A DNA stretch of 64,000 nucleotides from Bacteroidota bacterium (GTDB lineage Bacteria; Bacteroidota; Bacteroidia; AKYH767-A; 2013-40CM-41-45). The stretch covers positions 139,421 to 203,420 of the forward strand of contig SHNE01000033.1 of assembly GCA_004295015.1 (NCBI GenBank). The letters run 5' to 3'. Made by a program: the position numbers and the translations under genes. The notes below the pieces were generated by a model. It saw only the letters and a program-made list of their open reading frames with translations. It was not told the DNA's origin and made no database searches. Shown one piece after another: positions 3,501 to 63,921 of this stretch (position 1 is its first letter; the number at the start of each line of letters is the position of its first letter).

Positions 3501-4229
3501 ATGAAACTTTTTAACAACAAGTTTATTATTTTTTTCTGTGCAGCTTTATTGCTTGTAATCAGCCAATTTTATTCGTGTAAGGATGATGCTATCGTTCCGG
3601 GGAACAGCCAATCTTATACAAGCTATTTTCCTTTAATACATGGCCATTGGGTTGAGTATAATGCGGATTCGATTGTTCATTTGGATATTGACGATGCCTA
3701 CAATCTTGACACGGCTATCCGCACGTACCATTTTCAACTGAGAGAAGAAATTGATTCTTCCTATACAGATGCAGGAGGGGAGATAGCATGGAGAGTCAGC
3801 CGATACAGACGAGCGGATAGCAACTCGCCATGGACTTTCATGAATTTATGGACTGCCAAAAGGAGTAATAATTCTGCGCAAAGAGTGGAGGATAATATCC
3901 GTTTCATTAAACTGGCTTTCCCATTCGATCCAAGAATTAGTTGGAATGGGAATGCCTATAATAATTATCCTCTGGAAGAGTATTCTTATGATGCCATTAA
4001 TGAAGAATATACCGTAAATTCAAGCATCTTTGATTCTACAGTAAGCGTTATTCAGAATAACTTTGTGTCAAATATAAACCGTATCGATAAACGGGAGATT
4101 TATGCCCAAAATGTTGGTATGATTTATAAAGTGCTCGATAGCCTGAATATTGTAAACCTTCCTAATGGTTCTACTGTTATATTGAATGGAACAGAATATA
4201 AGCTAGAAATCCGCGACTACAAACGATAA
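3501..4229 (+). CDS. hypothetical lipoprotein
   Basis: A 242-residue protein with a lipoprotein signal peptide: a hydrophobic stretch at residues 8-24 and lipobox FYSC, Cys about 26, followed by KDDAIVPG. The mature part is rich in Tyr, Asn and Asp and looks beta-rich. No known domain was recognised. The family may be one of the many secreted Bacteroidota lipoproteins carrying a peptidase-associated or cell-surface beta domain. It lies 5 nt after the AlkB gene and 3 nt before the T9SS protease gene, so it is very probably co-transcribed with both. No function is assigned. Confidence 0.7.
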   Translation: MKLFNNKFIIFFCAALLLVISQFYSCKDDAIVPGNSQSYTSYFPLIHGHWVEYNADSIVHLDIDDAYNLDTAIRTYHFQLREEIDSSYTDAGGEIAWRVSRYRRADSNSPWTFMNLWTAKRSNNSAQRVEDNIRFIKLAFPFDPRISWNGNAYNNYPLEEYSYDAINEEYTVNSSIFDSTVSVIQNNFVSNINRIDKREIYAQNVGMIYKVLDSLNIVNLPNGSTVILNGTEYKLEIRDYKR

Positions 4230-4232
4230 GCC

Positions 4233-5888
4233 ATGATAAAGAGATTGGTCATTTTACTGCTGATTACGGTATTTTCACAAAGTGAAATTTACGCTTCCAG
4301 ATATTTTATAAAGTTCAAGGATAAAAATAATAGCCCTTTTTCTATTTCTAACCCTTCGACCTATTTATCTGCGAAAGCAATCCAACGAAGAGCGAATCAA
4401 GGTATCCCCATTACTGATTCAGATTTACCGGTGAATCCAGCCTACCTTGATTCGATACAGATCATGGGTGCCACCATCTTAAATGCAAGCAAATGGCTCA
4501 ATGGAGTAACGGTAGATTGTGACTCACTCACTTACCAAAGTATCCAGACATTGTCTTTTGTAGAAATGGGAAGGCAGGTGATGAGATTATCTGCCCAAAC
4601 CGAAAAGAAATCAAAAAAATTTCCGGAAAATATTCCTCTGCTTTCGAATCAGGGAATGATGCGGGTATCAAATTTAGATTATGGAAATTCCTTCAATCAA
4701 ATTCATCTGATGAACGGAGAATACTTGCATAACAATGGTTTTACAGGGGAAGGGATAACTATTGCAGTATTGGATGCCGGTTTTTATTCAGTAGATATGC
4801 TTTCAGCTTTTGACAGCTTACGTGCAAAGAACAATATACTCGGCACATGGGATTTTGTTGCTAATGAGCAAGGCGTTTACGAAGATAATAGTCATGGTAT
4901 GCAGGTATTGTCTTGCATGGCAGGCAATGTCCCCGGACAATTGGTTGGTACATCACCCGATGCTTCCTTTTGGCTACTACGATCAGAAGATGTTGCCACG
5001 GAATATATTATTGAAGAATACAATTGGGTGAGTGCTGCAGAATTTGCTGATAGCGTTGGGGCCGATATTATTTCATCTTCTCTGGGTTATTCTACATTCG
5101 ATGATTCCTCCACAAGCCACACCTATGCAGACATGAATGGGAATACCGCACCTTCAAGTATCGGCGCCGATTTCGCGGCTTCGAAAGGGATGCTGGTAAT
5201 TTGCAGTGCCGGTAATAATGGAAACAGCTCCTGGTATTATATCAGTGCACCATCAGATGGAGACAGTGTGTTAAGTGTTGCAGCTGTTGATGAATTTGGA
5301 AATAAAGCCGGGTTTAGCAGTTGGGGACCATCCTCAGATGGAGATGTAAAACCAAATGTTGCTGCTAAAGGTCAACAGACCACATTGGCCACTTCTTTTG
5401 GCGGAGTGGGTACAGGAAATGGAACCTCTTTCGCCTGTCCGGTTCTTGCAGGCTCGGCTGCTTGTCTATGGCAGGCACATCCCTTAAAAAGCAATATGGA
5501 AATATTTAATGCGATACAACAGAGTGCCAACTATTATCAAACACCGGGAGATTCCCTTGGTTATGGGATTCCGAATTTTATCGTTGCAGACTTATTATTA
5601 GGAGGCTCAAGTTTGTCGCTTCCCGGGGATGATCATTTAGTAGGCTTATATCCAAACCCATTTCAAAGTGAAATTAAATTCCAGTTCTTTTCTGCTGCCT
5701 CACAAATGTTGGTAATAGAGATTATTGATGCTATCGGAAAAGTCGTCAGGAGTGAAAAACGAGCGATACAAAAAGGGATGATGAATACAGTGCAACTGAG
5801 TTCGCTTTCAGGAATTCAACAAGGTGTTTATTTCGTGTTGATCAAGGCAAGCGAAACAAGTTTTCTGAGAAAAGTAATCAAGTATTAG
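4233..5888 (+). CDS. T9SS-exported subtilisin-like serine protease (S8)
   Basis: A 551-residue secreted peptidase. The order is signal peptide 1-21, a propeptide-like region (about 25-120), S8 catalytic domain (about 165-455) and a C-terminal T9SS type A sorting domain (about 470-551; LYPNPFQSE ... GVYFVLIK ... FLRKVIKY). Catalytic residues are Asp181 (IAVLDAGF), His221 (NSHGMQV) and Ser399 (NGTSFACP), with the oxyanion Asn in CSAGNNGN (328). The triad looks intact, so the enzyme should be active outside the cell after T9SS export. It is the last gene of the run with AlkB and the lipoprotein, and its 3' end faces the pterin dehydratase gene with 5 nt between them. The stop codon is TAG, which matters for judging the in-frame TAG at 12318. 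Confidence 0.9.
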   Translation: MIKRLVILLLITVFSQSEIYASRYFIKFKDKNNSPFSISNPSTYLSAKAIQRRANQGIPITDSDLPVNPAYLDSIQIMGATILNASKWLNGVTVDCDSLTYQSIQTLSFVEMGRQVMRLSAQTEKKSKKFPENIPLLSNQGMMRVSNLDYGNSFNQIHLMNGEYLHNNGFTGEGITIAVLDAGFYSVDMLSAFDSLRAKNNILGTWDFVANEQGVYEDNSHGMQVLSCMAGNVPGQLVGTSPDASFWLLRSEDVATEYIIEEYNWVSAAEFADSVGADIISSSLGYSTFDDSSTSHTYADMNGNTAPSSIGADFAASKGMLVICSAGNNGNSSWYYISAPSDGDSVLSVAAVDEFGNKAGFSSWGPSSDGDVKPNVAAKGQQTTLATSFGGVGTGNGTSFACPVLAGSAACLWQAHPLKSNMEIFNAIQQSANYYQTPGDSLGYGIPNFIVADLLLGGSSLSLPGDDHLVGLYPNPFQSEIKFQFFSAASQMLVIEIIDAIGKVVRSEKRAIQKGMMNTVQLSSLSGIQQGVYFVLIKASETSFLRKVIKY

Positions 5889-5893
5889 AAGAA

Positions 5894-6139
5894 TCAGTTT
5901 ACAAATTCAGAATAGATTTTATCGATAGCATCAGCCAGTTTTCTGTCTTTTTCTGTAACAACATCGCCTGCATCATGTGTGGAAAGTGAAATGGAGACTT
6001 TGTTCCACACATTGCTCCATTCCGGATGATGATTCATCTTTTCAGCAGCAAAGGCAACTCTTGTCATGAAGCTAAATGCCCGGGTAAAATCTTTAAACTC
6101 AAAATTTTTCTGTAGCTTGTTGTTTTTCTCTTCCCACAT
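5894..6139 (-). CDS. phhB: pterin-4a-carbinolamine dehydratase
   Basis: An 81-residue protein matching the pterin carbinolamine dehydratase family. The active-site signature [16 protein letters not shown] is followed by [14 protein letters not shown], giving the E-x3-HHP-x-W ... THDAGG/D-x-T-x-D pattern. The enzyme dehydrates 4a-hydroxytetrahydrobiopterin-type adducts formed by aromatic amino acid hydroxylases. It is shorter than the classic form of roughly 95-110 residues, but the motif block is complete and the [15 protein letters not shown] start looks natural for the compact bacterial form. It lies 46 nt downstream of trxB on the same strand. No phenylalanine hydroxylase gene is in the window. 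Confidence 0.88.
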
Positions 6140-6185
6140 AGCTCTTCTTTTAGGTTATTAATTCAGCGAAGAATGTATTGTAACA

Positions 6186-7130
6186 TCAATGAATTCCTTT
6201 AGCACTTAAATACCTTTCAGCATCTAGTGCCGCCATGCATCCGGTTCCTGCAGCAGTTACAGCCTGTCGGTAAATTTTATCTGCCACATCACCTGAAGCA
6301 AATACTCCTTCCACATTGGTTTTAGAAGTTCCAGGAATGGTTTTGATGTAACCGGTTTCATCCATGTCAAGCCAACCTTTGAAGATATCTGAATTCGGTT
6401 TATGTCCGATGGCTACAAAGAAACCGGTAACCTTTAAGGTTCGTTCTTCTCCCGTTTTCACATTTACAACCTGAACGCCTTCAACCGTTTTTGTTCCCAG
6501 GATTTCTTTTGTTTCGTGGCTCCAGAGAATCTCAATGTTGGCCGTATTTTCCACCCTGTGTTGCATAGCTTTACTTGCACGCATCTCGTCACGTCGTACA
6601 ATCATGTACACCTTCTTACAAAGTTTCGCAAGGTAGGTAGCTTCTTCGGCGGCTGTGTCACCGGCACCTACTATGGCAACATCTTGTCCTTTAAAAAAGA
6701 AACCGTCACACACGGCACATGCAGAAACTCCGTAGCCGTTAAGCTTTTGTTCTGATTCCAATCCAAGCCATTTGGCTGATGCACCTGTGGCTATAATTAC
6801 GGTGTCGGCCGTGAGTGTTTTGTTTTCGTCAACAACAACTTTGTGTGGAAGCGAAGAGAAGTCAACAGAAGTTGCATAACCATACCGAACATCTGTTCCG
6901 AAGCGTTCTGCCTGAGCTTTGAAATCTTCCATCATCTCAGGACCTTGTGTGCCTTTTGGATAGCCCGGATAATTCTCTACTTCAGTTGTTATCGTTAATT
7001 GTCCGCCCGGTTGGAGTCCCTGATAAAGTACCGGTTTCATGTCGGCGCGGGCTGCATAAATGGCTGCAGTGTAACCGGCAGGACCTGATCCTATAATAAG
7101 ACATTTAACATGTTCAATTTCATTTAACAT
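6186..7130 (-). CDS. trxB: thioredoxin-disulfide reductase
   Basis: A 314-residue cytoplasmic flavoprotein that uses NADPH to reduce thioredoxin. The FAD-binding GSGPAG (14-19) is followed by PGGQLTITTEVENYPG (41-56). The redox-active CAVC pair (Cys138, Cys141) sits in SACAVCDGFFFKG. The NADPH-binding GAGDTAAEEA starts near 155, and the C-terminal FAD motif is VFASGDVADK. Length and motif order are those of the low-molecular-weight bacterial enzyme. The gene stands apart from its upstream neighbour by about 120 nt. The pterin dehydratase gene follows it and may share its transcript. Confidence 0.96.
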   Translation of the reverse strand: MLNEIEHVKCLIIGSGPAGYTAAIYAARADMKPVLYQGLQPGGQLTITTEVENYPGYPKGTQGPEMMEDFKAQAERFGTDVRYGYATSVDFSSLPHKVVVDENKTLTADTVIIATGASAKWLGLESEQKLNGYGVSACAVCDGFFFKGQDVAIVGAGDTAAEEATYLAKLCKKVYMIVRRDEMRASKAMQHRVENTANIEILWSHETKEILGTKTVEGVQVVNVKTGEERTLKVTGFFVAIGHKPNSDIFKGWLDMDETGYIKTIPGTSKTNVEGVFASGDVADKIYRQAVTAAGTGCMAALDAERYLSAKGIH

Positions 7131-7249
7131 AAGAATATTTATCTAAGATTTGTTTTTTCTTTAATCAATGAGAAGAGGAGATGCACAATGCGCTGCTCTC
7201 ATTTTATTTACTTGTTGTTGTGATTGATATTGACTTGTTTTATAATTAT

Positions 7250-8167
7250 TTATCTGGCAATAATTGTATCGAATGTACATGCATATCCACCCCAAATTCC
7301 TAATCCGCCTGTTATGTTCCCAAGTACCGGTGCAGGTGAAGCGAATGGATTTCCATTATTCTGAACCTGTGTTTCTTCCGTTCGCCAGAATTCGAAATGT
7401 TGGCGATCAAGTGTGCAGAATTTTACAACAATCGTATCTCCGACCTTATAAAAGTATTTCTCATCATTGATATCATCAATTTTCTGAGAATTCCGAATCG
7501 TTCCTCTCTGGTAACCAAGATCAAAACTTTTTCCGTTAATAAATTTATCTTCAAAGACTGAGCCGCTTGGCGCTATGAGAATAGAGTCTTTCATCCTTCC
7601 AATTTGTGCACCAAACGTGTATCGGTTGATTCTTTGAGCAAACCAACGATAATGATTTCCGAGTGTGTCAGGGTCTGTGAGATGTGCCCAGGCAAATCCC
7701 AATGAGTCTCTTGTTCCGTTTACTTTGAACCACACACTATCAAGACTAATTGCCTCCGGAATATAAGTCGTAGCACTAAGCACTTTTCCTTCTACTTCAA
7801 CCCGTAGCGAGTAAGATGTTCGTTCCTGGCCTGTCATCCTGGGACTTGTATATACACCTATGCCGGGAATTTGATCAAGTGTGTCAATCATGCTTCCGTT
7901 GTCAATAATTACTCTTGCGCCTTGAATGGTTTGTTGAAATACTGTGGAGGTATTTATTGTTCCGAAGAAAGGCAGAGTTTTAGACAGAACAAGAATAGGG
8001 TTTTTTCCGGTTTCGATATATCCCTCTATGACTACCAATGGTTCTGCGTCCGGAACATCAACGGTTACGTTTTTTTCACAAGCAGTAAGACCGAGGATAA
8101 GGCCACAAAATATTATTGCACCCAAAAAATGCTGCTTAAAATTTAACAAGAGTTTATTGAAGTTCAT
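7250..8167 (-). CDS. DUF4249 lipoprotein, partner of TonB receptor
   Basis: A 305-residue lipoprotein. The signal peptide has a hydrophobic core at residues 15-27 and lipobox LTAC (Cys 30), followed by EKNVTVDVPDAEPLVVIEGYIETGKNPILVLSKT, which is the typical opening of DUF4249 proteins. These are Bacteroidota-specific surface lipoproteins found next to TonB receptors with a carboxypeptidase-like domain, and that is the arrangement here. The start lies 4 nt after the stop of the receptor gene. A role in substrate capture for the receptor is inferred from gene pairing only. Confidence 0.85.
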   Translation of the reverse strand: MNFNKLLLNFKQHFLGAIIFCGLILGLTACEKNVTVDVPDAEPLVVIEGYIETGKNPILVLSKTLPFFGTINTSTVFQQTIQGARVIIDNGSMIDTLDQIPGIGVYTSPRMTGQERTSYSLRVEVEGKVLSATTYIPEAISLDSVWFKVNGTRDSLGFAWAHLTDPDTLGNHYRWFAQRINRYTFGAQIGRMKDSILIAPSGSVFEDKFINGKSFDLGYQRGTIRNSQKIDDINDEKYFYKVGDTIVVKFCTLDRQHFEFWRTEETQVQNNGNPFASPAPVLGNITGGLGIWGGYACTFDTIIAR

Positions 8168-8171
8168 TCAA

Positions 8172-10547
8172 TCAGAATTTGAAATTATAGGTGATACTTG
8201 GAATGAATGGAAAGAGGGAAATTTGCTTGGCTTGAATGCTGATTTTATCTTCATTGTATTCTGTATCAAAATAGATGACATAAGGATTGTATCTATTGTA
8301 GACATTAAAGAAACTGAAGTTCCAACTGGATTCGAATTTCTTACCGGGCTTGTTTTTAAGAGTTGCACTAAAATCCAAACGATGATAAGGTGCAAGCCTG
8401 TAATTATTACGTTGCTCTCCGTAATCCTGAACAATGTCGCCATTCGAGAGTACATACAATCTTTCGGGGAAAGTGTTGAGATTTCCTGTTGCATATACCC
8501 AGGTAGCTCCAAATGTCCATCGTTTTGTCAGTTCATAAATGAGAACAATGGATACATCGTGACGACGATCATATTTGGGGGAGAAGGTGAGCCCGCGGTT
8601 CAAGTCAGGAAACTTTCTCTTTGTCCAGGCTAATGTATAACCAATCCATCCATTGAATTTTCCCTTAGCCTTCTTGATAAAAAATTCAGCGCCATAACTC
8701 CATCCATCTCCATAAACGAAATTATTGTCGACATTATCATTGATAGAATTTTCAGGCAAAAATCCTTCTTCATATTCCACTTGATTTTTCATCTCTTTAT
8801 AATAGAGCTCGACACTTGATTCGTAAGTGTTATTCTTGAAATTCTTAAAATAGCCTAATGCGTACTGAGTTGCAAATTGAGGTTTGACCTTATCTGAACT
8901 TGGAATCCATACATCAGTAGGCAGCGAGACACCGGATAGCGAGGCCAAATGAATGTATTGGTAATTCTGGGTATAAGCTGCTTTAACCGAAGAAGCGTTA
9001 TTTATGGCATAACGAACGGTGAGTCTCGGTTCCAAATTTCTGTATGTCTGCACTTTTTCTCCTGACCCATAATGAACGGTATCTATAACCGTTTTTTTAA
9101 TCGGATCTCTGATGAAACGATCGAAAGGCCCTACTTGCTGGAAGAAAGTGCCTCTCAGCCCGCCATTTATTTTCCATTTATCAGAAAGATCAAATTCATC
9201 GTTTACATAGATAGCAACATCATGTGCATATTCCCGTAGAATTTTTCCTAAATCAAATTCAACTTCCCCTGATTTCGCTGAGGCATTGCTGGGAACAAAC
9301 ACGTGAAAAATATACTGTCCTCCAAACTTTACTGTATGCCTTAATTCAGGCAGCCAGGTAAAATCACTTTTCAGATTGTAGTCAGTAATCCCTGAAAATA
9401 ATTTAAAGCTGAAGCCCTCCTGACCTCCTTCAAAGGAAAAATCATAGTTGGTATAAATCAGCGAGGTGTTCATAAACAAACGGTTATTGAACAAGTGATT
9501 CCAGCGTAGGGTAGTGGTTGCATTGCCCCAAGGAACTTTAATGAAGAAATCAGATTCCGGGCTTCTGAAATTAAACACATCTCTCCCAAAATATCCGCTT
9601 AAAAACAAACGGTCTTTGTCGCTCAGCCTGTAATTTGCCTTCAGGTTCAAATCATAGAAATAATATTTATTTCCTTGAATGTCTGACCCTTCAGGTATAA
9701 ATGGTTTTTGGAGAAACAAATCAATAAAAGTCCTTCTCCCCGAAATGATAAAAGAGCCGGTATCTTTTTTTATCGGACCTTCGATTGTCAGACGGGAAGA
9801 AACAAATCCAAGTCCTCCTTCAGCACCAAATTTTTGATTATTTCCTTCCTTCATTTGGATGTCGAGAACTGATGAAAGTCGACCTCCGTAATTTGCAGGC
9901 ATACCACCCTTGGTAAGCGTAACATTTTGTACGGCATCTGCATTAAACACAGAGAAAAATCCAAAGAGATGAGAGGCGTTATATACATTCGCTTCGTCCA
10001 ACAAAATTAAATTCTGATCCGGACCTCCACCTCTGACATAATAGCCTGTATTACCTTCGCCTGCCGATTGAACACCGGGAAGCAATTGAATGGTTTTTAA
10101 TATGTCCACCTCACCCATGAATGCAGGAAGTGTTTTAATTTTTTCTATTTCGATTTTCTCTCTACCCATCTCTGTGCTCTGTACATTACGATCAGCTTTT
10201 TCAGCAGTGATGGTCACTTCCTGAGTCTCAATGGCTATTCCGCTCAGCTTTACATTTTGTCTGATATCTGTATTAAGATTGAGCGGATACTCCTGTGTAA
10301 TGAAACCCAGGTATGAAATTACCAATGTATATTGGCCTTCTGACAGTGTCAGGGAATAAAATCCATAACTGTTTGTGACTGTTCCTTTGAGAGTTTCCTT
10401 CACATAAACGTTGGCTCCAAGAAGCGACTCTCCGGTCTCAGCTTCTTTGACATAACCACTAATGGTATAATTTTTCTGAGCGACAGCCTGGTAAACAATG
10501 GTAGAAAGGAAGAAAAGGGTAAGCAGTAGTAATTTTCCGGAATTCAT
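8172..10547 (-). CDS. TonB-dependent receptor with carboxypeptidase-regulatory-like domain
   Basis: A complete 791-residue outer-membrane receptor. Residues 1-23 are a signal peptide. Residues 26-110 are the CarboxypepD_reg-like domain (YTISGYVKEAETGESLLGANVYV). Residues about 120-235 are the plug (MGEVDILKTIQLLPGVQS, GYYVRGGGPDQNLILLDEANVY, NYGGRLSSVLDIQMKEG). A 22-strand-type barrel follows and ends in the aromatic FIPSITYNFKF. It should import an unknown ligand with energy from TonB-ExbBD. It is transcribed ahead of the DUF4249 lipoprotein gene with 4 nt between them, and the promoter candidate is at 10608-10615. No regulator, SusD gene or sigma/anti-sigma pair is adjacent. Confidence 0.93.
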   Translation of the reverse strand: MNSGKLLLLTLFFLSTIVYQAVAQKNYTISGYVKEAETGESLLGANVYVKETLKGTVTNSYGFYSLTLSEGQYTLVISYLGFITQEYPLNLNTDIRQNVKLSGIAIETQEVTITAEKADRNVQSTEMGREKIEIEKIKTLPAFMGEVDILKTIQLLPGVQSAGEGNTGYYVRGGGPDQNLILLDEANVYNASHLFGFFSVFNADAVQNVTLTKGGMPANYGGRLSSVLDIQMKEGNNQKFGAEGGLGFVSSRLTIEGPIKKDTGSFIISGRRTFIDLFLQKPFIPEGSDIQGNKYYFYDLNLKANYRLSDKDRLFLSGYFGRDVFNFRSPESDFFIKVPWGNATTTLRWNHLFNNRLFMNTSLIYTNYDFSFEGGQEGFSFKLFSGITDYNLKSDFTWLPELRHTVKFGGQYIFHVFVPSNASAKSGEVEFDLGKILREYAHDVAIYVNDEFDLSDKWKINGGLRGTFFQQVGPFDRFIRDPIKKTVIDTVHYGSGEKVQTYRNLEPRLTVRYAINNASSVKAAYTQNYQYIHLASLSGVSLPTDVWIPSSDKVKPQFATQYALGYFKNFKNNTYESSVELYYKEMKNQVEYEEGFLPENSINDNVDNNFVYGDGWSYGAEFFIKKAKGKFNGWIGYTLAWTKRKFPDLNRGLTFSPKYDRRHDVSIVLIYELTKRWTFGATWVYATGNLNTFPERLYVLSNGDIVQDYGEQRNNYRLAPYHRLDFSATLKNKPGKKFESSWNFSFFNVYNRYNPYVIYFDTEYNEDKISIQAKQISLFPFIPSITYNFKF

Positions 10548-10607
10548 ATTTTAAATGGAGAAACCTGTCTTCAATGGTAACAGACAGATCTGTTATTAAT
10601 ATTTTTG

Positions 10608-10615
10608 CAAATGTA
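10608..10615 (-). promoter_or_regulatory. -7 promoter element of the TonB receptor/DUF4249 pair
   Basis: On the minus strand this reads TACATTTG, a full match to TAnnTTTG, 60 nt upstream of the receptor ATG. A -33 TTG at 19-nt spacing was not evident. Confidence 0.5.
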
Positions 10616-10812
10616 CCAATTTCAGTTCTTCTGAGAGGAAATTCTCTAAGCTAATTTGCGGCAAAACGGACCGAATGAGTTAAATTCTGTAGAGATGAAC
10701 AGCAAGTTCCGCATTTTGTTTAGGACCTCTTAAATTTCATTGATTATTGAGTATGGTTCGGATTTTTAAATTATTAAATGTATTGAAGGTGCTTAATTTC
10801 GATTGAATTTCG

Positions 10813-10820
10813 TACTTTTG
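10813..10820 (+). promoter_or_regulatory. -7 promoter element of RNase P RNA
   Basis: TACTTTTG followed by C is a full match to the Bacteroidota -7 element, ending 18 nt before the first base of the predicted P1 helix. Confidence 0.6.
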
Positions 10821-10838
10821 CATGATTAGAATATTAAA

Positions 10839-11243
10839 CACCGTTGATGTTCTATCGCCTTCAAAGCTTGCTTTGGTGGAGGAAAGTCCGGGCAGCGCAG
10901 AGCATCCTGCTTCCTAACGGGAAGGGGCAAAACCGGTAACGGTTTGGTCACAGAAAGTGCCGCAGAAAATTACCGTCCGGCCTTGGCCGGATAAGGGTGA
11001 AAACGTGAGGTAAGAGCTCACGGTGTGTTTCCGTAAGGTGCATTCGGGTAAACCTCAGGAGTTGAAAAACCAAATAAGTCATGGTTTGTCTCCGGACAAA
11101 AAGAACGGCTCGTTCAAATTCCCTTCAACAGGAATACCATGGCGGGTAGGTTGATTGAGGTGTTGTGTGAACAACATCCCAGATAAATGATAGAGCTTCC
11201 GGTGAATAACCGGAATACAGAACCCGGCTTACAATCAACGGTG
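10839..11243 (+). ncRNA. rnpB: RNase P RNA (bacterial type A)
   Basis: This is the catalytic RNA of RNase P, which removes 5' leaders from tRNA precursors. The universally conserved core is visible: GAGGAAAGTCCGGGC near 10879 (P4/J3-4 side), the CACAGAAAGTGCCGC segment near 10949, and ACAGAACCCGGCTTA near 11217-11231 (3' P4 side). The ends form a perfect 10-bp P1 helix, with 10839-10848 (CACCGTTGAT) pairing with 11234-11243 (ATCAACGGTG), which fixes both boundaries to within a few bases. The length of about 405 nt is normal for type A. A -7 box precedes it and an intrinsic terminator follows one nucleotide after P1. Confidence 0.97.
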
Positions 11244-11282
11244 AACAAAACATCCTTCTTGATGAGGGATGTTTTGTTTTTT
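11244..11282 (+). terminator. intrinsic terminator of rnpB
   Basis: A perfect 12-bp stem, with 11244-11255 (AACAAAACATCC) pairing with 11267-11278, an 11-nt loop, and a U-run continuing to 11282. It follows the P1 helix of RNase P RNA directly. Confidence 0.9.
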
Positions 11283-11334
11283 AATCAACAGATTTGGGAT
11301 GGATAAATATCGTGTTCATTGCCGTTACAATCTT

Positions 11335-11342
11335 TATCTTTG
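11335..11342 (+). promoter_or_regulatory. -7 promoter element of the vWA gene
   Basis: TATCTTTG followed by G matches TAnnTTTG and ends 9 nt before the ATG at 11352. It lies inside the longer open frame that begins with TTG at 11319, which argues for the ATG as true start and for a very short leader. Confidence 0.5.
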
Positions 11343-11351
11343 GCAGCATTT

Positions 11352-12320
11352 ATGAACTTTCAGCTTCTTACACAATTCTCTGCCTGGTGGATACTTCTTT
11401 GTCTGCTCATCGGATTCTTATATGCCTGGATTCTATACAGGCACTTTCCAACACAGGATGAACAAAGCCCGTGGTTTAATAGGATTTTATTTTTTCTTCG
11501 CTTCACAGTAGTTTCGATTCTTGCTTTTCTGCTTCTTTCTCCAATGATTCGTACTCTTTCAAGAGAGACGGAGAAACCTCTGTTGCTTTTTGCCCAGGAT
11601 GTATCATCGAGTATTTTGTTAAATGCAGATTCAGCTTATTACAAAGGGGAATACAAGCAGGCAGTGAGTGATTTTTTAAACAATCTGCAGGATAAATATG
11701 AGGTCACTGGTTTATCATGGGGCGATGGAGTTCGGGAAGGTGTTGATTACAATTATTCCGATAAACAAACTGATTTCGATGCACTGTTTGAACAAATGAA
11801 TATACGCCTTGGAAATCGAAATGTCGGAGCTGTAGTCATTGCTTCCGACGGATTATATAATAAAGGCAGTAATCCGCTTTACCTAAGTGGGCCTAAGGTC
11901 CCGATGTATACAGTGGCCCTTGGCGACACAAACATTCGTAAAGACCTTCTGATTTCAGATCTGAATTATAACCGTGTCGTTTATCTTGGGAACTCTTTTC
12001 CGATTGAAATAAGTATAGATGCACGACAATGCAATGCATCACAGGCAACCTTGACTGTCAAATTAGATTCGGCAACTGTTTTCAGTCGGTCGTTCCCTAT
12101 TAGCGGTAATCGGTTTAGTCAGATGATCCCTGTGATATTTGATGCCTCTTCCAAAGGAATGAAGCATTACCGCATTGAACTCACCAAACTAAATGATGAA
12201 GTAACGTATTCGAATAATGTTAGGGATGTATACATCGAAGTAAAGGAGAGTAAACAAAAAGTTCTTCTCGTTGCGAATGCTCCTCATCCTGATCTTGCTG
12301 CTATTAAGCAAGCTATCTAG
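11352..12320 (+). CDS. vWA-type membrane protein, N-terminal half (interrupted by in-frame TAG)
   Basis: A 322-residue N-terminal fragment. It has two transmembrane segments (about residues 9-30 and 47-67; WWILLCLLIGFLYAWILY and ILFFLRFTVVSILAFLLLSP). A von Willebrand A-like region follows, with a MIDAS-like FAQDVSSSIL and VVIASDGLYNKGSNP. The frame ends at TAG 12318-12320 inside what reads as a continuous domain (PHPDLAAIKQAI, stop, SNGNYTMKVA), and the same frame resumes directly into the gene at 12339. Without the stop, the protein would span 11352-13439 (about 695 residues) and end in a C-terminal membrane anchor. I therefore regard this as half of a broken gene or a sequencing error. The ATG at 11352 is preferred to a TTG at 11319 because the -7 box overlaps the extra codons. 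Confidence 0.75.
   Translation: MNFQLLTQFSAWWILLCLLIGFLYAWILYRHFPTQDEQSPWFNRILFFLRFTVVSILAFLLLSPMIRTLSRETEKPLLLFAQDVSSSILLNADSAYYKGEYKQAVSDFLNNLQDKYEVTGLSWGDGVREGVDYNYSDKQTDFDALFEQMNIRLGNRNVGAVVIASDGLYNKGSNPLYLSGPKVPMYTVALGDTNIRKDLLISDLNYNRVVYLGNSFPIEISIDARQCNASQATLTVKLDSATVFSRSFPISGNRFSQMIPVIFDASSKGMKHYRIELTKLNDEVTYSNNVRDVYIEVKESKQKVLLVANAPHPDLAAIKQAI
12318..12320 (+). other. in-frame TAG splitting the vWA protein
   Basis: The reading frame is identical on both sides of this codon. Six sense codons (SNGNYT) separate it from the next ATG. A single base change (for example GAG to TAG) would explain it. Confidence 0.85.
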
Positions 12321-56297: not shown

Positions 56298-57365
56298 CTA
56301 CTTTTTGGTCTTTACCTCAACAGGTATTTTTTTTATAAAGGGGTTTATTGGAGCTGTAACTTCTTTAAGAGATAGCATGTTCAGTGGAAACTCAAGAATG
56401 ACATGCAATGCGCTCAATACAAACAGAGCGACTGCTCCAACACGAAAGTTCACGGTGTATAGAATAATGGCTATAATCCAAACAGCAATAGCAGCAATGA
56501 GTTTCTTCTTTTCTATTTTATGCCATTGAATGATGGAAGTTTTAGAGAACCAGTTTAAATAATGATAGGTATAGGCGAAGGCAAGAAATATTTGAGCCTT
56601 CCATACATATGGTGCATAGAAATTCATTTTGTGATCTTTTACAAGTCCGAACATTTCATTGATGGTATAATTTACAGCGTGAAAATTGCTGGCAATGGTC
56701 ATGTCAAGAATGAATGGATTGATCGAATTTGCTATAGGACGGATATCTGCACCAACAATTAAAAACAAAACAAGAAACATCGAAAAAATATTTGCTTTAC
56801 CCCATCCGGAACCCGATTTTTTCGTGCCGAACCACATGAAAAGAAGAGTGAATAAGTACACATGTATGATGGTTGGCAGGAAAACACCAACCCATATGAG
56901 TACGGATGGATTTTTAAAATAGAAAAAGGAAAGAAAGAAGCAAATACTCACCAGGACAATTCTGTTTTTCCAGGATGAGGTGAGGTGATAGATGAAGGTA
57001 AAGAATACTGCAACAAATAATACAGTACTGCTCCATTCAATATATTGTGTTATTCCTTCCTCTGAACTGAATTGAAGAAGTGAGTTATACAAGTTTTTTG
57101 TAATATCCCATCTGCCTAATTCATTTACAAAGTACCCGGCAACCAAAATCAACAATACAACTCCGGCAATAACTAAGAACCCTGTTTTGTCGGATTGCCG
57201 GTTTAAAAAGTAATTCTTTTTGTCAAGCCAGTTAATTTCGGTCATGTAGTGTAGAGGGCCGAGAACGATATAAGAGAAGAGAAATAGCTCAAATGGAAAA
57301 TTAAAAGCAAGAATGAGTGAAATCCAGATCAGAAAAAAATTTAGCAAATCTATTTTTTGGCTCAT
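56298..57365 (-). CDS. polytopic membrane protein with conserved-looking intramembrane histidines
   Basis: A 355-residue integral membrane protein with about nine to ten helices (for example 8-36, 61-81, 112-128, 135-150, 155-179, 193-206, 255-273, 289-305 and 309-328). Histidines lie in or at the ends of helices: His39 and Glu43 (GPLHYMTEINW), His127, His168, His268 (AYTYHYLNW) and His321 (SALHVILEFP). Such a pattern recalls membrane enzymes that bind metal or haem, such as the Brp/Blh beta-carotene oxygenase group, but no family match is certain. It is transcribed divergently from the porin/Rieske/imelysin operon, sharing the 205-nt region with the palindromic operator. Confidence 0.6.
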   Translation of the reverse strand: MSQKIDLLNFFLIWISLILAFNFPFELFLFSYIVLGPLHYMTEINWLDKKNYFLNRQSDKTGFLVIAGVVLLILVAGYFVNELGRWDITKNLYNSLLQFSSEEGITQYIEWSSTVLFVAVFFTFIYHLTSSWKNRIVLVSICFFLSFFYFKNPSVLIWVGVFLPTIIHVYLFTLLFMWFGTKKSGSGWGKANIFSMFLVLFLIVGADIRPIANSINPFILDMTIASNFHAVNYTINEMFGLVKDHKMNFYAPYVWKAQIFLAFAYTYHYLNWFSKTSIIQWHKIEKKKLIAAIAVWIIAIILYTVNFRVGAVALFVLSALHVILEFPLNMLSLKEVTAPINPFIKKIPVEVKTKK

Positions 57366-57523: not shown

Positions 57524-57554
57524 TTTGTTTAGAATGATTCTAAATATAGCTTTG
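57524..57554 (+). promoter_or_regulatory. promoter of the porin/Rieske/imelysin/di-haem operon
   Basis: TTTG (57524-57527), a 19-nt spacer, then TAGCTTTG (57547-57554) followed by C: a complete Bacteroidota promoter, 16 nt before the ATG at 57571. Confidence 0.75.
57528..57544. promoter_or_regulatory. 17-bp perfect palindrome, likely operator of a Fur-superfamily regulator
   Basis: TTTAGAATGATTCTAAA is symmetric around one central G and fills the spacer between the -33 and -7 elements, so a bound repressor would block RNA polymerase. It fits the pattern TTTAGAA-N3-TTCTAAA that I recall as the iron-control element bound by Irr, a Fur-superfamily protein. The regulator itself is not in the window. 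Confidence 0.6.
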
Positions 57555-57570
57555 CAGTCAAATTCAGATT

Positions 57571-58779
57571 ATGAAAAAGTTCATCCTATTATCCCTTATT
57601 ATTTTGTCAGGCTATGCGGGCCAAGCCCAGTTCCTGAATCGCGAAGACTCAATGATTGCCGGTTTGAATCCGGGTTCAAGTAATGTTATTCTTTCCGGAT
57701 ACGGTGAGGCAAAGTATTCATACAACTCGAATCTGGAAACAGCCTCCATCAACCTCACCCGTGCCGTCGTATTTGTTGGATACCGATTCAATAATAAAAT
57801 CAGTTTACTAACAGAGATTGAAATTGAAGATGCTAAAGTTGATGGTGATGGAGGTGAGTTGGCCTTTGAACAATGCCTTCTCAAATTCGACTTGAATAAA
57901 AACAATTACCTGTTGGCAGGATTGTTTATTCCACGTATTGGAATTATCAATGAGAATCACCTGCCTAACACATTCAACGGAAACGACCGTCATGTTGTTG
58001 AACGAATGGTCATTCCAAGCACCTGGCGTGAATTAGGAATCGGATATTACGGTAATACAAACAAGATTCCCGGATTGAATTGGAGCCTCGCTTTGATGAA
58101 TGGTCTTAATGCCGAAGGCATAACAGGTGGGCGAGGCCTACGTGATGCACGTTTTGAAGGACGTGATGCTTCTGCTTCCAATTTGGCTCTAAGTGCCGCA
58201 TTACTCTATTATAATTCCGGCTTGAGAATTCAAGCATCAACCTATTATGGTGGAACGGTAGGATTAACACCTCGTGCTGCAGATAGTTTGGGATTGGATT
58301 CAGGCCCATTTGGAACTCCGGTTTCTTTAAACGAAATCAATGCACAATATTCGAAGAAAGGATTTACTTTAAAAGCGCTTGCTGCAGTTTGTGCTATCCC
58401 GGATGCAGATAAATTAAACGTTGCCTTTGCCTCGAATGCTCCCGAGTCAATGTTTGGCTACATGGCCGAACTGGGATATAATGTATTGGAGACAAGTAAG
58501 TGGAAGGAGAAGCAATTAATTCTTTTTGCCCGATATGAAAGTATGGATTTGATGAACAAAGTTCCGTCCAACGGAATCAAGGATGAGCTCTATAAGCAGG
58601 AGTATATTATTGCCGGCTTAACCTATCTCCCGATACGAAATGTAGCTATTAAGTTGGACTGGAAACACGTAAAGACAGGTGATCCTAATCCGGCATTGAT
58701 ATTCGCACCAAATCCGAATGAACCTGCTTATGAGCCTGTCAATAATTTCTATCAGCTTGGTTTTGCTTATAGCTTCTAA
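57571..58779 (+). CDS. outer-membrane porin of the iron-type operon
   Basis: A 402-residue beta-barrel with a signal peptide (1-19, FILLSLIILSGYAGQAQ). Strands alternate, with features of phosphate-selective-porin/Gram-negative porin families: VILSGYGEAKYSYNSN, INLTRAVVFVGYRFNNKISLLTEIEIEDA, LLAGLFIPRIGIINENHLP, WRELGIGYYG and the terminal NNFYQLGFAYSF ending in phenylalanine. It is not a TonB receptor (no plug). It is the first gene of a run of four whose other members are envelope redox or iron-linked lipoproteins, and its ligand could therefore be an iron or metal complex (inference). The next gene starts at the base after its stop. Confidence 0.8.
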   Translation: MKKFILLSLIILSGYAGQAQFLNREDSMIAGLNPGSSNVILSGYGEAKYSYNSNLETASINLTRAVVFVGYRFNNKISLLTEIEIEDAKVDGDGGELAFEQCLLKFDLNKNNYLLAGLFIPRIGIINENHLPNTFNGNDRHVVERMVIPSTWRELGIGYYGNTNKIPGLNWSLALMNGLNAEGITGGRGLRDARFEGRDASASNLALSAALLYYNSGLRIQASTYYGGTVGLTPRAADSLGLDSGPFGTPVSLNEINAQYSKKGFTLKALAAVCAIPDADKLNVAFASNAPESMFGYMAELGYNVLETSKWKEKQLILFARYESMDLMNKVPSNGIKDELYKQEYIIAGLTYLPIRNVAIKLDWKHVKTGDPNPALIFAPNPNEPAYEPVNNFYQLGFAYSF

Positions 58780-59211
58780 ATGTCAGATCGAAGAAAGTTT
58801 ATTAAAGATTCCTGTACTGCATGTGTCGGACTGCTAGCATTCACTTCGCTCTCATCATTGCTGAGCAGTTGTGTTTCTTTGCCGGTGCATTCTGCAACAG
58901 TGACAAATAATTTAATTCAGGTGCCACTTGAAAGTATTCTTCCCGATGAGCAGATGAAAATAATTCGGTCTAAAAGCCTTGCCTATGATATTTTGCTTGT
59001 CTTGAAAAAGGATAAAAAGCATCTTTCTTTTCTGATGAAATGTACTCATCAGGATAATATTCTTGTTGCCACGAAACAGGGCATGGTTTGCAATCTGCAT
59101 GGAAGTCATTTTGACCTGAACGGTGACGTAAAAAATGGTCCTGCTTCCAAGCCACTTCAAAGATTGAAAACAATTGAAGAAAATAATTATATTAATATTT
59201 ATACAGCATAA
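58780..59211 (+). CDS. Rieske [2Fe-2S] lipoprotein with Tat-like signal
   Basis: A 143-residue protein. The N-terminus has a twin-arginine-like motif (DRRKFIKD), a hydrophobic stretch (residues 14-28) and a lipobox-like LSSC (Cys 31), so it is probably exported folded and lipid-anchored. The Rieske cluster ligands are present as CTH (Cys88, His90) and CNLH (Cys104, His107), in KCTHQDN and VCNLHGSHFDLNGDVKNGPASKPL. A small solo Rieske protein could pass electrons in the periplasm or at the cell surface. It lies between the porin gene (0 nt) and the imelysin gene (12 nt). Confidence 0.85.
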   Translation: MSDRRKFIKDSCTACVGLLAFTSLSSLLSSCVSLPVHSATVTNNLIQVPLESILPDEQMKIIRSKSLAYDILLVLKKDKKHLSFLMKCTHQDNILVATKQGMVCNLHGSHFDLNGDVKNGPASKPLQRLKTIEENNYINIYTA

Positions 59212-59223
59212 AAACTAAATAGA

Positions 59224-60306
59224 ATGAAAAGAATCTCCTCCTTCATCTTAGGTACCTTTATCATTGTGGCTACGTCCTGTAAAAAAGATAGTGAAACTGC
59301 ACCTGTTGTACCGGTTTTAACGAATCAGGAAATCCAAACGAATATTCTTGAAGATTTCAGTCGTAAGTTAGTTCTTTCAACTTATCAGGACATGGAGAAT
59401 AAAATGAATACATTTTATAATGCTTGCCTGGACTTTGATGCTTCTCAGACGCAATCGGATTTGGAAAATAGCCGCATCGCATGGAAGACTGTCCGAGCAG
59501 TGTGGGAGCAGAGTGAAGCTTTTCTTTTCGGGCCTGTATCTACGGAGAATATTGATCCAAGCACAGACACCTGGCCTGTCGATTATAATTCACTGGATTC
59601 GCTTTTGAATACTTCAAATGCTTTTACTCAAGCATACATGAACAGTTTGGGAGACGAGCTGAAAGGTTATCACCCGGCAGAGTTTATTTTGTGGGGCGCA
59701 ACAGGAAATAAAATGCCTGTAGATTTTACACCCAGGGAAAGAGAATATTTAATTGCCCTTGCTGCCGATTTGCAGATTAAATCAACACAGCTTCGTGCGA
59801 GCTGGGATCCTTCTGTAGCTGATAATTATTTACTGCATATTGTAAATGCCGGACAAGCCGGCAGTATTTATCCATCTCAACGGGCCGTGTTCGAAGAAAT
59901 TATAAATGCCATGATTGGTATTTGTGATGAAGTAGCAAATGGAAAGATTTACGAACCTTTTGCAAGTTCTGATCCTTCATTGGAAGAGTCTCCATTCAGC
60001 CAAAACTCATTGACCGATTTTAAAAACAATATACGAGGCGTAAAAAATGTTTACTTTGGAGATTATCTGGTCGACGGATATGGTTTAAATGAATTCATGG
60101 TAAAAAACAACTTGTCTTTACACTCGTCAGTTTCATCTCAGATTGATAATGCGCTCAACTCATTCAATGGAATAACTGTACCTTTCGGGCAAGCTATATT
60201 TTCTGAGCGTACACAGGTTCAACACGTAATGACACAAATTAATTCCTTAAAGGCGACGTTGGAAAATCAGCTATTGCCTTTCATTCAACAATCGATTACA
60301 GAGTAA
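59224..60306 (+). CDS. imelysin family lipoprotein (M75 / iron-regulated protein)
   Basis: A 360-residue lipoprotein (signal peptide with lipobox ATSC, Cys 19). It carries the imelysin GxHxxE motif GYHPAE (148-153) in ELKGYHPAEFILWG. A WPVDYNSLDSLL segment precedes it and a second helical repeat follows (IRGVKNVYFGDYLVDGYGLNEFM). The family includes IrpA and EfeO-like iron-linked proteins and is not a true peptidase in most members. In Bacteroidota it is often next to a di-haem oxidoreductase, as here (0 nt to the next gene). A role in iron uptake or sensing is the accepted association, not proved for this gene. Confidence 0.9.
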   Translation: MKRISSFILGTFIIVATSCKKDSETAPVVPVLTNQEIQTNILEDFSRKLVLSTYQDMENKMNTFYNACLDFDASQTQSDLENSRIAWKTVRAVWEQSEAFLFGPVSTENIDPSTDTWPVDYNSLDSLLNTSNAFTQAYMNSLGDELKGYHPAEFILWGATGNKMPVDFTPREREYLIALAADLQIKSTQLRASWDPSVADNYLLHIVNAGQAGSIYPSQRAVFEEIINAMIGICDEVANGKIYEPFASSDPSLEESPFSQNSLTDFKNNIRGVKNVYFGDYLVDGYGLNEFMVKNNLSLHSSVSSQIDNALNSFNGITVPFGQAIFSERTQVQHVMTQINSLKATLENQLLPFIQQSITE

Positions 60307-61695
60307 ATGAAATTTCCGGGCAAAATATTATTGGTGCTAAGCTGCTTTTTAATACTGGCGGTATTGCTTCATTCATGTCGAAAGGCGGAAGAATGGGATG
60401 AGGAACAATCGGATGAACGTTTGAGTGGTGGTTCACAAACAGTATTCTCAGAAGGCGTAGGTGCCTTCTCTGAAGCATTTCCGACCTTAACCGGGACTCG
60501 TCTCGAAATGCACGACTTAGGCGATGCACATTTTGAAGCAACCTTTGTAAGTTCTCCCGCACCGTTGTTTCAGGGACTGGGAACAATATTCAATAGCAAC
60601 TCGTGTTTCAATTGTCACATCAATGATGGCCGCGGAAAACCTATTCTCAACACGGAACCTCTTGCGAGTATGTTGTTCCGCGTAAGCATTCCCGGTTCCG
60701 GCGTTCATGGCGAACCACTTTCTGCTCCCGGTTACGGTGGGCAATTACAAGATAAGGCGACCTTTGGTTATTCACCGGAAGCAGGTGTCACAGTAAATTG
60801 GATAGAAAGCACTGCATTTTTTACAGATGGGGATTCTATCAAACTCCGTGAGCCTGTATGGAATTTTGTAAACCACTATACATCGGTTCCTGCAGGCATG
60901 ATGTATTCGGCAAGAGTTGCTCCTCCATTGCATGGAATGGGATTGCTTGAACAAATTGATGAATACAAGATCAGAGAGTTGGCTGATGTAAATGATCTTG
61001 ATGGTGACGGAATTTCAGGTAAGCCGAATAGTGTGTGGGATGAGAAGAATCAGCGCAAGATGCTTGGACGGTTCGGATGGAAGAGCGAGGCTGCTACTCT
61101 CGATCAGCAGGTTGCGGGTGCATACAATGAAGATATGGGAGTAACGAGTTATATTTTCAGAACAGAAAGTAGCTTCGGACAAGTTCAGTATGATAATATT
61201 CGTGATGAGCCGGAGGTTCCGGATAGTATTTTCAACTCAGTGGTGTTTTATGTTAAAACTCTTGCCGTGCCCGCCAGGAGAAAGGTGACCGACCCGGTCG
61301 TTAAAAGAGGGAAGGAAATTTTTTCTCAAGCGTCTTGCAATAAGTGTCACATCCCGACTATCAGGACAAAGACAGATGTTACTTTTCCTGAGGCTTCCAA
61401 TCAATTGATTCATCCTTATACTGATCTTTTATTACATGACATGGGTCCGGGCTTGGCGGACCAGCGTCCGGCATACGAGGCAAGTGGACAGGAATGGCGG
61501 ACACCACCTTTATGGGGAATTGGCCTGACGCAATTGGTAAATGGCCATAATAATTATCTCCATGATGGAAGGGCGAGAAGTTTGATGGAAGCAGTGATGT
61601 GGCATGGAGGAGAGGCTGAAGCTTCAGTAAATTTTGTGAAAGCACTTCCTAAGGCGGATAGAGACGCACTTCTAAGCTTTCTGAGAAGTCTCTAA
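60307..61695 (+). CDS. di-haem oxidoreductase lipoprotein (DHOR, putative peroxidase)
   Basis: A 462-residue c-type cytochrome of the di-haem oxidoreductase family (DUF1111, sometimes named thiol oxidoreductase). A lipobox LHSC (Cys 24) suggests lipid anchoring. Haem sites are CFNCH (100-104) and CNKCH (344-348). Between them is an EF-hand-like DVNDLDGDGISGKPN (about 228-241), and later GMGEGLADQRP-like wording (HDMGPGLADQRPAY) and the conserved WRTPPLWGIGL and LHDGRARSLMEAVMWHGGEA. It is the last gene of the operon with imelysin, and the pair is recurrent in genomes. The electron acceptor and substrate are unknown. Confidence 0.92.
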   Translation: MKFPGKILLVLSCFLILAVLLHSCRKAEEWDEEQSDERLSGGSQTVFSEGVGAFSEAFPTLTGTRLEMHDLGDAHFEATFVSSPAPLFQGLGTIFNSNSCFNCHINDGRGKPILNTEPLASMLFRVSIPGSGVHGEPLSAPGYGGQLQDKATFGYSPEAGVTVNWIESTAFFTDGDSIKLREPVWNFVNHYTSVPAGMMYSARVAPPLHGMGLLEQIDEYKIRELADVNDLDGDGISGKPNSVWDEKNQRKMLGRFGWKSEAATLDQQVAGAYNEDMGVTSYIFRTESSFGQVQYDNIRDEPEVPDSIFNSVVFYVKTLAVPARRKVTDPVVKRGKEIFSQASCNKCHIPTIRTKTDVTFPEASNQLIHPYTDLLLHDMGPGLADQRPAYEASGQEWRTPPLWGIGLTQLVNGHNNYLHDGRARSLMEAVMWHGGEAEASVNFVKALPKADRDALLSFLRSL

Positions 61696-63072: not shown

Positions 63073-63921
63073 TTATCCTTTCTTCTTCTTTTTCTTCCCT
63101 GCCTTCAATACAGTTTTTTCATCACCCTTTAACCTTCTTTCAACTTTTTTCAAATCCTCATCGGCCGGCAGTTGTTCCGGTTTGACTCCCCGGTCTTTTA
63201 GCATTTTACGCACAGCCAGATTATTATCAATATGTTCCTTTGAAATATGTTTTTCTCCTTTTAAATCTTTTTCAACTACGTTGTGGCTGCTAATTTCTGT
63301 TGCGAAATCTTTTGCTTTGATTATTAGTGTCGGTAAAAAATCTGCTAAAGGTTTTGAAGATGGAACTTTTAATTTTCGTTTCATATCATTTGTTCCGTAG
63401 CCACCGAATAAAGCCTGATCACCTTTGCTCCTGATAACGGCAAAGCCGGTCTCATCAACTCCGCGTTCATAAATAATTGTAGAAAACTTTTTCTCGGATT
63501 TGGAGAGTTTTTCTCTTGCGGTGACTCGCGCAATATCCAGCAGTCTTTGTTCAATAATTTCCTGTTTTCTTGTTTGAACTGCAAAATAGGTTTGAGCAAA
63601 TGCGATTTCAGGTTTTGAAGCATCTCCATTCTGTGCTACCAGGTAACATGCATATCTTGTGAGTGCGATGTCCTCGATTTCTCTTTGTGCTCCTTTCGCC
63701 ATTTCGATCAATTTGTTGACGTCAACAAATTGATCGATAATTTCATTTCCGCTGTTCTCACAAGCCTCTTTGGCTTTATCAATTACCTTTAAAAAGTTCC
63801 TCCATTCACTGTAATCAAAAATTGCTTGTAGTTCTCTTGCGCTCCACCATTCCACTTCATTGTAAACATGGCATGCATTTTCAAATTGCTGGAAGAGTAT
63901 TTTGATCTGTTCTTTTTTCAT
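63073..63921 (-). CDS. dinD: DNA damage-inducible protein D (DinD)
   Basis: A 282-residue protein matching DinD. The N-terminal VYNEVEWWSARELQAIFDYSEWRNFLKVIDKAKEAC, then LTRYACYLVAQNGDASKPEIAFAQTYFAVQTRKQE and YERGVDETGFAVIRSKGDQALFGGYGTNDMKRKL, are the conserved family blocks. The N-terminal segment resembles a BRO-N-like domain. In E. coli DinD is SOS-induced and reported to inhibit RecA strand exchange, but it is patchily distributed and often horizontally exchanged. The C-terminus is a lysine-rich tail. A promoter candidate lies at 63926-63954. I saw no LexA box consensus in the 79 nt available upstream. Confidence 0.92.
   Translation of the reverse strand: MKKEQIKILFQQFENACHVYNEVEWWSARELQAIFDYSEWRNFLKVIDKAKEACENSGNEIIDQFVDVNKLIEMAKGAQREIEDIALTRYACYLVAQNGDASKPEIAFAQTYFAVQTRKQEIIEQRLLDIARVTAREKLSKSEKKFSTIIYERGVDETGFAVIRSKGDQALFGGYGTNDMKRKLKVPSSKPLADFLPTLIIKAKDFATEISSHNVVEKDLKGEKHISKEHIDNNLAVRKMLKDRGVKPEQLPADEDLKKVERRLKGDEKTVLKAGKKKKKKG

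Follow-up and report, generated by a model that had tools for sequence, protein, structure and literature searches.

A porin, Rieske lipoprotein, imelysin and di-haem oxidoreductase operon as a predicted Fur-repressed iron-acquisition module of the Bacteroidota cell envelope

The operon described here occupies positions 57571-61695 of a 64-kb window, by which we mean the whole stretch of 64,000 nucleotides (nt) analysed (positions 139,421 to 203,420 of contig SHNE01000033.1, assembly GCA_004295015.1), taken from a Bacteroidota bacterium whose genome comprises 3.86 Mb in 56 contigs. Four open reading frames (ORFs), all on the + strand and separated by gaps of 0, 12 and 0 nt, encode in this order a porin of 402 amino acids (aa) with a signal peptide and a 16-stranded beta-barrel in its AlphaFold2 (AF2) model (57571-58779), a 143-aa Rieske [2Fe-2S] lipoprotein with a twin-arginine signal (58780-59211, PF00355), a 360-aa imelysin (M75) lipoprotein (59224-60306, PF09375) and a 462-aa di-haem oxidoreductase (DHOR) lipoprotein (60307-61695, PF06537). 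On these identities and coordinates, already proposed in a first-pass annotation of the sequence, the ORF calls, the Pfam matches and the porin model agree. The same annotation took all products except the porin to be lipid-anchored, and the lipobox cysteine is indeed invariant among homologues of the Rieske protein (C31), the imelysin (C19) and the DHOR (C24).

The arrangement had been called unusual, which holds with respect to the literature but not within Bacteroidota, where it is common. A scan of the contig collection anchored on the porin alignment yielded 80 loci, all Bacteroidota by title, and the order porin-Rieske-imelysin-DHOR was found in 54 of them, the gaps having medians of 5, 5.5 and 11 nt. 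Because the same four-gene order recurs in so many loci, the arrangement is far beyond chance, and fortuitous adjacency of the four genes was ruled out. The neighbourhood survey proposed in the first-pass annotation thus came out in favour of a conserved set, and its tightest element was the pair formed by porin and Rieske genes, adjacent in 72 of 75 loci that show the following gene and standing without the other two genes in 12 of the 80. Six loci in which the Rieske gene appeared to be lost turned out to reflect an ORF-calling artefact, since a six-frame search with a hidden Markov model recovered the gene in each.

A second sample, blind to the porin, was anchored on the DHOR and drew 50 readable loci from 296 Bacteroidota genomes. 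Three arrangements were distinguished: type A, with the order of the window; type B, in which the DHOR gene is followed by the Rieske gene and mostly then by the porin gene; and type C, the previously described arrangement of DHOR with one or two imelysins. Type B accounted for 29 loci, type A for 3 and type C for 11, besides five loci with porin-imelysin-DHOR and two with a solo DHOR. In a DHOR tree built without proteobacterial sequences, the window protein falls in clade A (Shimodaira-Hasegawa-like approximate likelihood ratio test support, 99), while all type-B proteins form one clade (100) and all type-C proteins another (99); the window DHOR is therefore not in the clade of the Bacteroidota imelysin-DHOR operons that have no porin. 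Two genomes carry members of both module versions.

Just upstream of the porin gene, a Bacteroidota-type promoter of the pattern TTTG-N19-TAGCTTTG was found at 57524-57554 (+). About four chance matches to this pattern are expected per 64 kb, so that the promoter call rests on its position immediately before the operon and around a palindrome. This palindrome, TTTAGAATGATTCTAAA, perfect over its 17 bp at 57528-57544 with half-sites TTTAGAAT-N-ATTCTAAA, lies in the promoter spacer and is the only match in the window at up to three mismatches. In Riemerella anatipestifer (Flavobacteriales) the Fur box is ATTTAGAATTATTCTAAAT, and promoter fragments were retarded by purified Fur in electrophoretic mobility shift assays (PMC5609570); comparison of the two sequences shows that the window 17-mer is identical to this box except at the centre base. 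Two exact copies occur genome-wide, against about 0.01 expected from a rough base-composition estimate, and the sole copy with one mismatch lies upstream of feoA-feoB, which includes the only true feoB of a genome that encodes a single Fur protein. We infer from this sequence evidence that Fur binds at 57528-57544.

The predicted Fur box is also found in relatives. At up to one mismatch it is present upstream in 8 of the 12 near porin relatives, and at up to three mismatches it lies near the porin start in 39 of 78 named loci, compared with 2.6% of random windows. Upstream of the porin gene in the operons of Mucilaginibacter and Chryseolinea (three loci) there is a variant palindrome, TTTGGATTAAATCTAAA, which has Fur-type spacing and half-sites nearer to the DtxR-type motif. 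The second exact copy in the host genome (G000:C4:14318-14334; L003, L053) lies just upstream of a gene for a LuxR-type response regulator, a possible iron-responsive regulator. Among the 23 TonB plug domains encoded in the genome, none stands beside a palindrome site at up to two mismatches. A scan for sigma-70 promoters and terminators was uninformative.

The paralogous version of the module is linked to iron genes in another way. Of the 29 type-B loci, 11 have a gene of the DtxR family (iron-dependent repressors) no more than six genes away, six have feoB on the same strand and one has an NRAMP transporter gene, whereas none of the three was found near the type-C loci (0/11). In all seven intergenic regions between divergent DtxR and DHOR genes the motif TTAG-N6-CTAA is present, compared with 1.2% of random windows. 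Apparent operons with FeoB were identified in loci L084, L162-L164, L173 and L179. At L162 the order is DtxR, a FeoA/DtxR fusion, the FeoB G-domain, the FeoB membrane domain, DHOR, Rieske and porin; at L084 (WGMZ01000033.1, locus 3931-12071) the same four leading genes are followed by porin, Rieske, imelysin and DHOR, all on a single strand with small gaps or overlaps. Both versions of the module, that with the order DHOR-Rieske-porin and that with the window order, are thus found joined to FeoB. In most of these loci (L162, 3669-6949; L084, 4596-7870; also L164, L173 and L179) FeoB is split into two ORFs for the G-domain and the membrane domain, preceded by a fusion of FeoA with the metal-binding domain of DtxR and by a separate DtxR repressor.

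Since the exact Fur-box palindrome is common to the operon and, with one mismatch, to feoAB and recurs upstream of orthologues, and since genes for DtxR, FeoB or NRAMP accompany loci of the paralogous version, an iron-uptake role of the module appears well supported by association. The response to metals considered in the first-pass annotation is borne out as far as it can be judged from sequence. Of the iron-redox or uptake path suggested there, the iron-uptake role stands, while metal binding by imelysin, the Rieske/DHOR redox pair and entry through the porin are kept here as conditional steps. We propose, with a probability of roughly 0.6, that the operon encodes a cell-envelope module for acquiring iron, repressed by Fur and supplying Fe2+ to FeoB; it is probably the outer-membrane and periplasmic part, unspecified until now, of an iron-uptake route.

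A possible sequence of events is as follows. Iron shortage would lift Fur, and the operon and feoAB would be expressed together; the porin would then pass iron, most likely as Fe2+ or small iron complexes, over the outer membrane, and the lipid-anchored imelysin may hold the iron or pass it on. Electron transfer between the Rieske protein and DHOR, putative partners for which the direction of electron flow is likewise a prediction, would keep or bring the iron to the ferrous state, and FeoB, encoded separately but co-regulated, would pump Fe2+ into the cytoplasm. A broader version of this proposal, to which we give rather less than even odds, assigns to the Feo pathway of Bacteroidota a dedicated leg in the outer membrane and periplasm, in which a porin conducts the metal and a Rieske/di-haem pair reduces ferric iron within the envelope, supplying Fe2+ to FeoB. 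This leg would exist in two regulatory versions, a Fur-type with imelysin and a DtxR-type without it, and in some species would take the place of iron uptake that depends on TonB.

Several observations weigh against an iron-acquisition module of this kind. When up to three mismatches are allowed, the Fur site shows no enrichment across the genome (67 matches, against 76 with a control pattern); the loose scan was therefore dropped as genome-wide evidence, and only exact sites or those with one mismatch were counted. About half of the distant orthologues, notably most of those in Chitinophagaceae, do not have this palindrome, and a palindrome common to the Chitinophagaceae operons was sought and not found. 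Some loci have porin and Rieske genes without DHOR, and 10 of 12 such genomes (mostly metagenome-assembled) have no DHOR elsewhere; others have porin, imelysin and DHOR without Rieske. Because both kinds of loci exist, the four genes are not obligatory partners. The porin lumen is on the whole only mildly acidic (11.7 acidic versus 8.4 basic residues per sequence). Some type-B loci adjoin genes for CusA/CzcA-like RND efflux or other heavy-metal resistance-like genes, which means that some versions of the module may serve metals other than iron.

The porin itself gave only a sub-threshold beta-barrel match in the Pfam scan, and a sequence search returned no convincing full-length match to a solved structure. 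Its AF2 model (mean predicted local distance difference test score, pLDDT, 86.5) has 16 strands and is closest to OprO (Z 26.7) and OprP (Z 26.4), with 301-304 residues aligned at 3.1-3.2 A and 13-14% identity. PF07396 (Porin_O_P) has no match in the window protein at E <= 0.1 and matches weakly in 10 of 44 relatives (best E 2.4e-5). Given that these nearest folds are phosphate and pyrophosphate porins, the protein could be a general or anion porin whose only tie to the known imelysin-DHOR pair is a common iron-responsive promoter, and the weak Porin_O_P matches are consistent with this. We nevertheless consider it quite unlikely, as the porin is linked more tightly to Rieske than to imelysin, is tied to DHOR and Rieske in two inverted arrangements and also to FeoB or NRAMP, and carries an invariant row of glutamates. 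These residues, Glu82-x-Glu84-x-Glu86 on strand 3 (57814-57828, +), are 98-100% conserved in 44 homologues and should face the lumen, since they alternate with hydrophobic residues. A long loop between strands 5 and 6 (57928-58029, +), delimited from the conservation profile and strand assignment, contains the conserved residues N127, N129, H130 and R140 and may be an L3-type constriction loop.

The Rieske protein was recognized by PF00355 (E 1.9e-8) and its twin-arginine signal by a TIGR01409 match just over the cut-off. The four cluster ligands, C88-x-H90 and C104-xx-H107 (59041-59100, +), are invariant in both module types. Among type-A homologues, the RR pair is present in 64 of 72 and an acidic residue follows the lipid cysteine in none of 70. 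The imelysin matches PF09375 (E 3.5e-54), has 4ecg (iron-regulated protein A) and 3n8u (imelysin) as nearest solved chains and contains the GxHxxE motif as GYHPAE (residues 148-153), in which G148, H150 and E153 are invariant. Lys or Arg is found at positions +2 to +4 after the lipid cysteine in 50 of 54 imelysins; at least two acidic residues follow it in just 14 of 54, and we therefore do not claim surface exposure. Because the residues after the lipid cysteine differ between the Rieske protein and the imelysin, the lipoproteins may differ in location, and any membrane face assigned to each of them is putative.

The DHOR, annotated as a putative peroxidase, matches PF06537 with E 3.1e-94, and its AF2 model (pLDDT 93.0) has the fold of di-haem cytochrome c peroxidases (CCPs), MauG, the MauG-like protein 6e1c and hydrazine synthase gamma (Z 15-16), although sequence search for a solved relative gave no convincing full-length match. 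Both haem motifs, C100-xx-C103-H104 (60604-60618, +) and C344-xx-C347-H348 (61336-61350, +), are invariant in 51 DHORs, as is His433 (61603-61605, +), which follows the His of an HDG motif by 14 residues and is the predicted distal ligand of the C-terminal haem. Judging by motif spacing rather than by superposed coordinates, we take His433 to stand at the ligand position of CCP Met275 and MauG Tyr294; it would give a low-potential bis-His C-terminal haem, unlike the His/Met haem of peroxidases.

These features bear on two other roles for the enzyme. In the first, the Rieske protein and DHOR would act as a short peroxidase chain in the envelope, clearing H2O2 and so keeping imported Fe2+ from being oxidised, with no direct role in transport. 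The peroxidase annotation and fold favour such protection, as does the position of the gene beside uptake genes, given the danger of Fenton chemistry there; it seems rather unlikely to us all the same, considering that two haems and a 2Fe-2S cluster are costly to make under iron starvation, that classical CCPs do not share the bis-His ligation predicted here for the electron-entry haem and that peroxide needs no dedicated porin. In the second, DHOR would be a MauG/MbnH-like enzyme that, with electrons from the Rieske protein, installs a metal site in imelysin or the porin by oxidative modification, the way MbnH acts on MbnP in copper homeostasis. The CCP/MauG fold, the copper-homeostasis protein 6e1c among the top matches and the adjacency of DHOR to a protein of metal-binding type in the operon would fit, and so would Gln148 and Glu158, conserved in types A and B with the spacing of the catalytic Gln103 and Glu113 of MauG. 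Against it, the invariant His occupies the motif position of MauG Tyr294 in the C-terminal haem, and the Y294H form of MauG loses bis-Fe(IV) chemistry; moreover, type B has DHOR without imelysin, and protein maturation is in our judgement unlikely.

The DHOR is the only cytochrome of the unit, with two CXXCH motifs, and this count matters for a further alternative, in which porin and redox proteins would build an outer-membrane path for respiratory or extracellular electron transfer or for Fe(II) oxidation instead of uptake. Although a barrel, a cytochrome and an Fe-S protein do share one operon, with three lipoproteins among four products, there are just two haems in the unit, the Fur/DtxR-type sites and FeoB linkage fit uptake, and the barrel is nearest to the 16-strand solute porins OprO and OprP, all of which makes an electron conduit very unlikely. 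Known conduits of the MtrCAB type require about ten haems lined up within the barrel, and the window unit has no such multihaem cytochrome.

The four-gene unit is flanked by a divergent membrane protein gene and an 83-aa ORF, and evidence that the gene on either flank belongs to the unit was sought and not found. The divergent gene (56298-57365, -) encodes a multi-spanning membrane protein of 355 aa without a Pfam or NCBIfam match. Further away, at 63073-63921 (-), lies a gene for a 282-aa Bro-N domain protein (PF02498, E 6e-9) with no link to the operon. No EfeU (Ftr1) permease was found among the operon and neighbouring ORFs.

Among known systems, the closest are the Fur-regulated iron operons that pair imelysin with DHOR, described for Pseudomonas aeruginosa (PA4370-PA4373) and Vibrio cholerae (VC1264-VC1266) (Xu et al. 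2011, PMC3143127), so that the first-pass annotation was right to regard this as a known pair. As in the window, a GxHxxE imelysin is encoded beside a DUF1111/DHOR di-haem protein, with a lipoprotein, an implied role in iron uptake and control by Fur (predicted in our case); unlike the window, these operons have two imelysins, as in type C, and no porin or Rieske protein is described in them. The core of novelty is porin and Rieske, not imelysin and DHOR. We found no description of the porin-Rieske core or of the FeoB link in the open-licence literature, an absence that is weak evidence, and take imelysin-DHOR under Fur as known and these two elements as apparently new. A full-text search for imelysin and Rieske gave one paper, on the Bizionia iron regulator MliR, in which a Rieske protein (BZARG_RS03005) and a cytochrome c (BZARG_RS03000) with neighbouring locus tags were strongly down in the mutant, as were iron-uptake genes, and were interpreted as respiratory (PMC9478572). 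We suspect that the two may be a type-B DHOR-Rieske pair instead of belonging to bc1 respiration.

Individual components also have counterparts elsewhere. The ferrous-iron system EfeUOB similarly combines an imelysin-domain protein (EfeO) and a haem peroxidase (EfeB) with an iron permease (EfeU), whereas the window has a di-haem c-type DHOR, an outer-membrane porin and a Rieske protein, its imelysin scores 19.1 bits against the EfeO model NF041757 (cut-off 270), and relatives have FeoB or NRAMP in place of EfeU as the linked permease. The Rieske protein shares domain and ligands with the bc1/b6f subunit, but it is a 143-aa lipoprotein that scores 24-25 bits against NCBIfam equivalogs with cut-offs of 97-250 and has porin and imelysin genes as neighbours instead of a bc operon. 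MbnP/MbnH and MauG resemble the window in that a di-haem MauG-like enzyme is encoded beside a metal-handling protein; in the window, however, the partner is an imelysin, His, not Tyr, is predicted as the distal residue at the C-terminal haem, and the sites are of Fur/DtxR type. OprP and OprO share the 16-strand barrel and are the best structural match to the porin, some relatives of which show weak Porin_O_P similarity, but the invariant lumen-side glutamates of the window porin contrast with the arginine ladder that serves phosphate in OprP (title of structure 2o4v), and the window porin is predicted to be iron-regulated.

With Feo the module has in common a Fur-type site in this genome and, in relatives, an apparent operon. 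To our knowledge no outer-membrane or envelope redox component of Feo has been recognized, and the module would supply one; it would also provide a setting in which to understand the chemistry of imelysin and DHOR proteins. The crossing of the outer membrane by Fe2+ before FeoB is usually ascribed to diffusion through porins (PMC9478572); a conserved porin with iron-type regulatory sites, redox partners and sometimes FeoB would make this step a defined and testable system.

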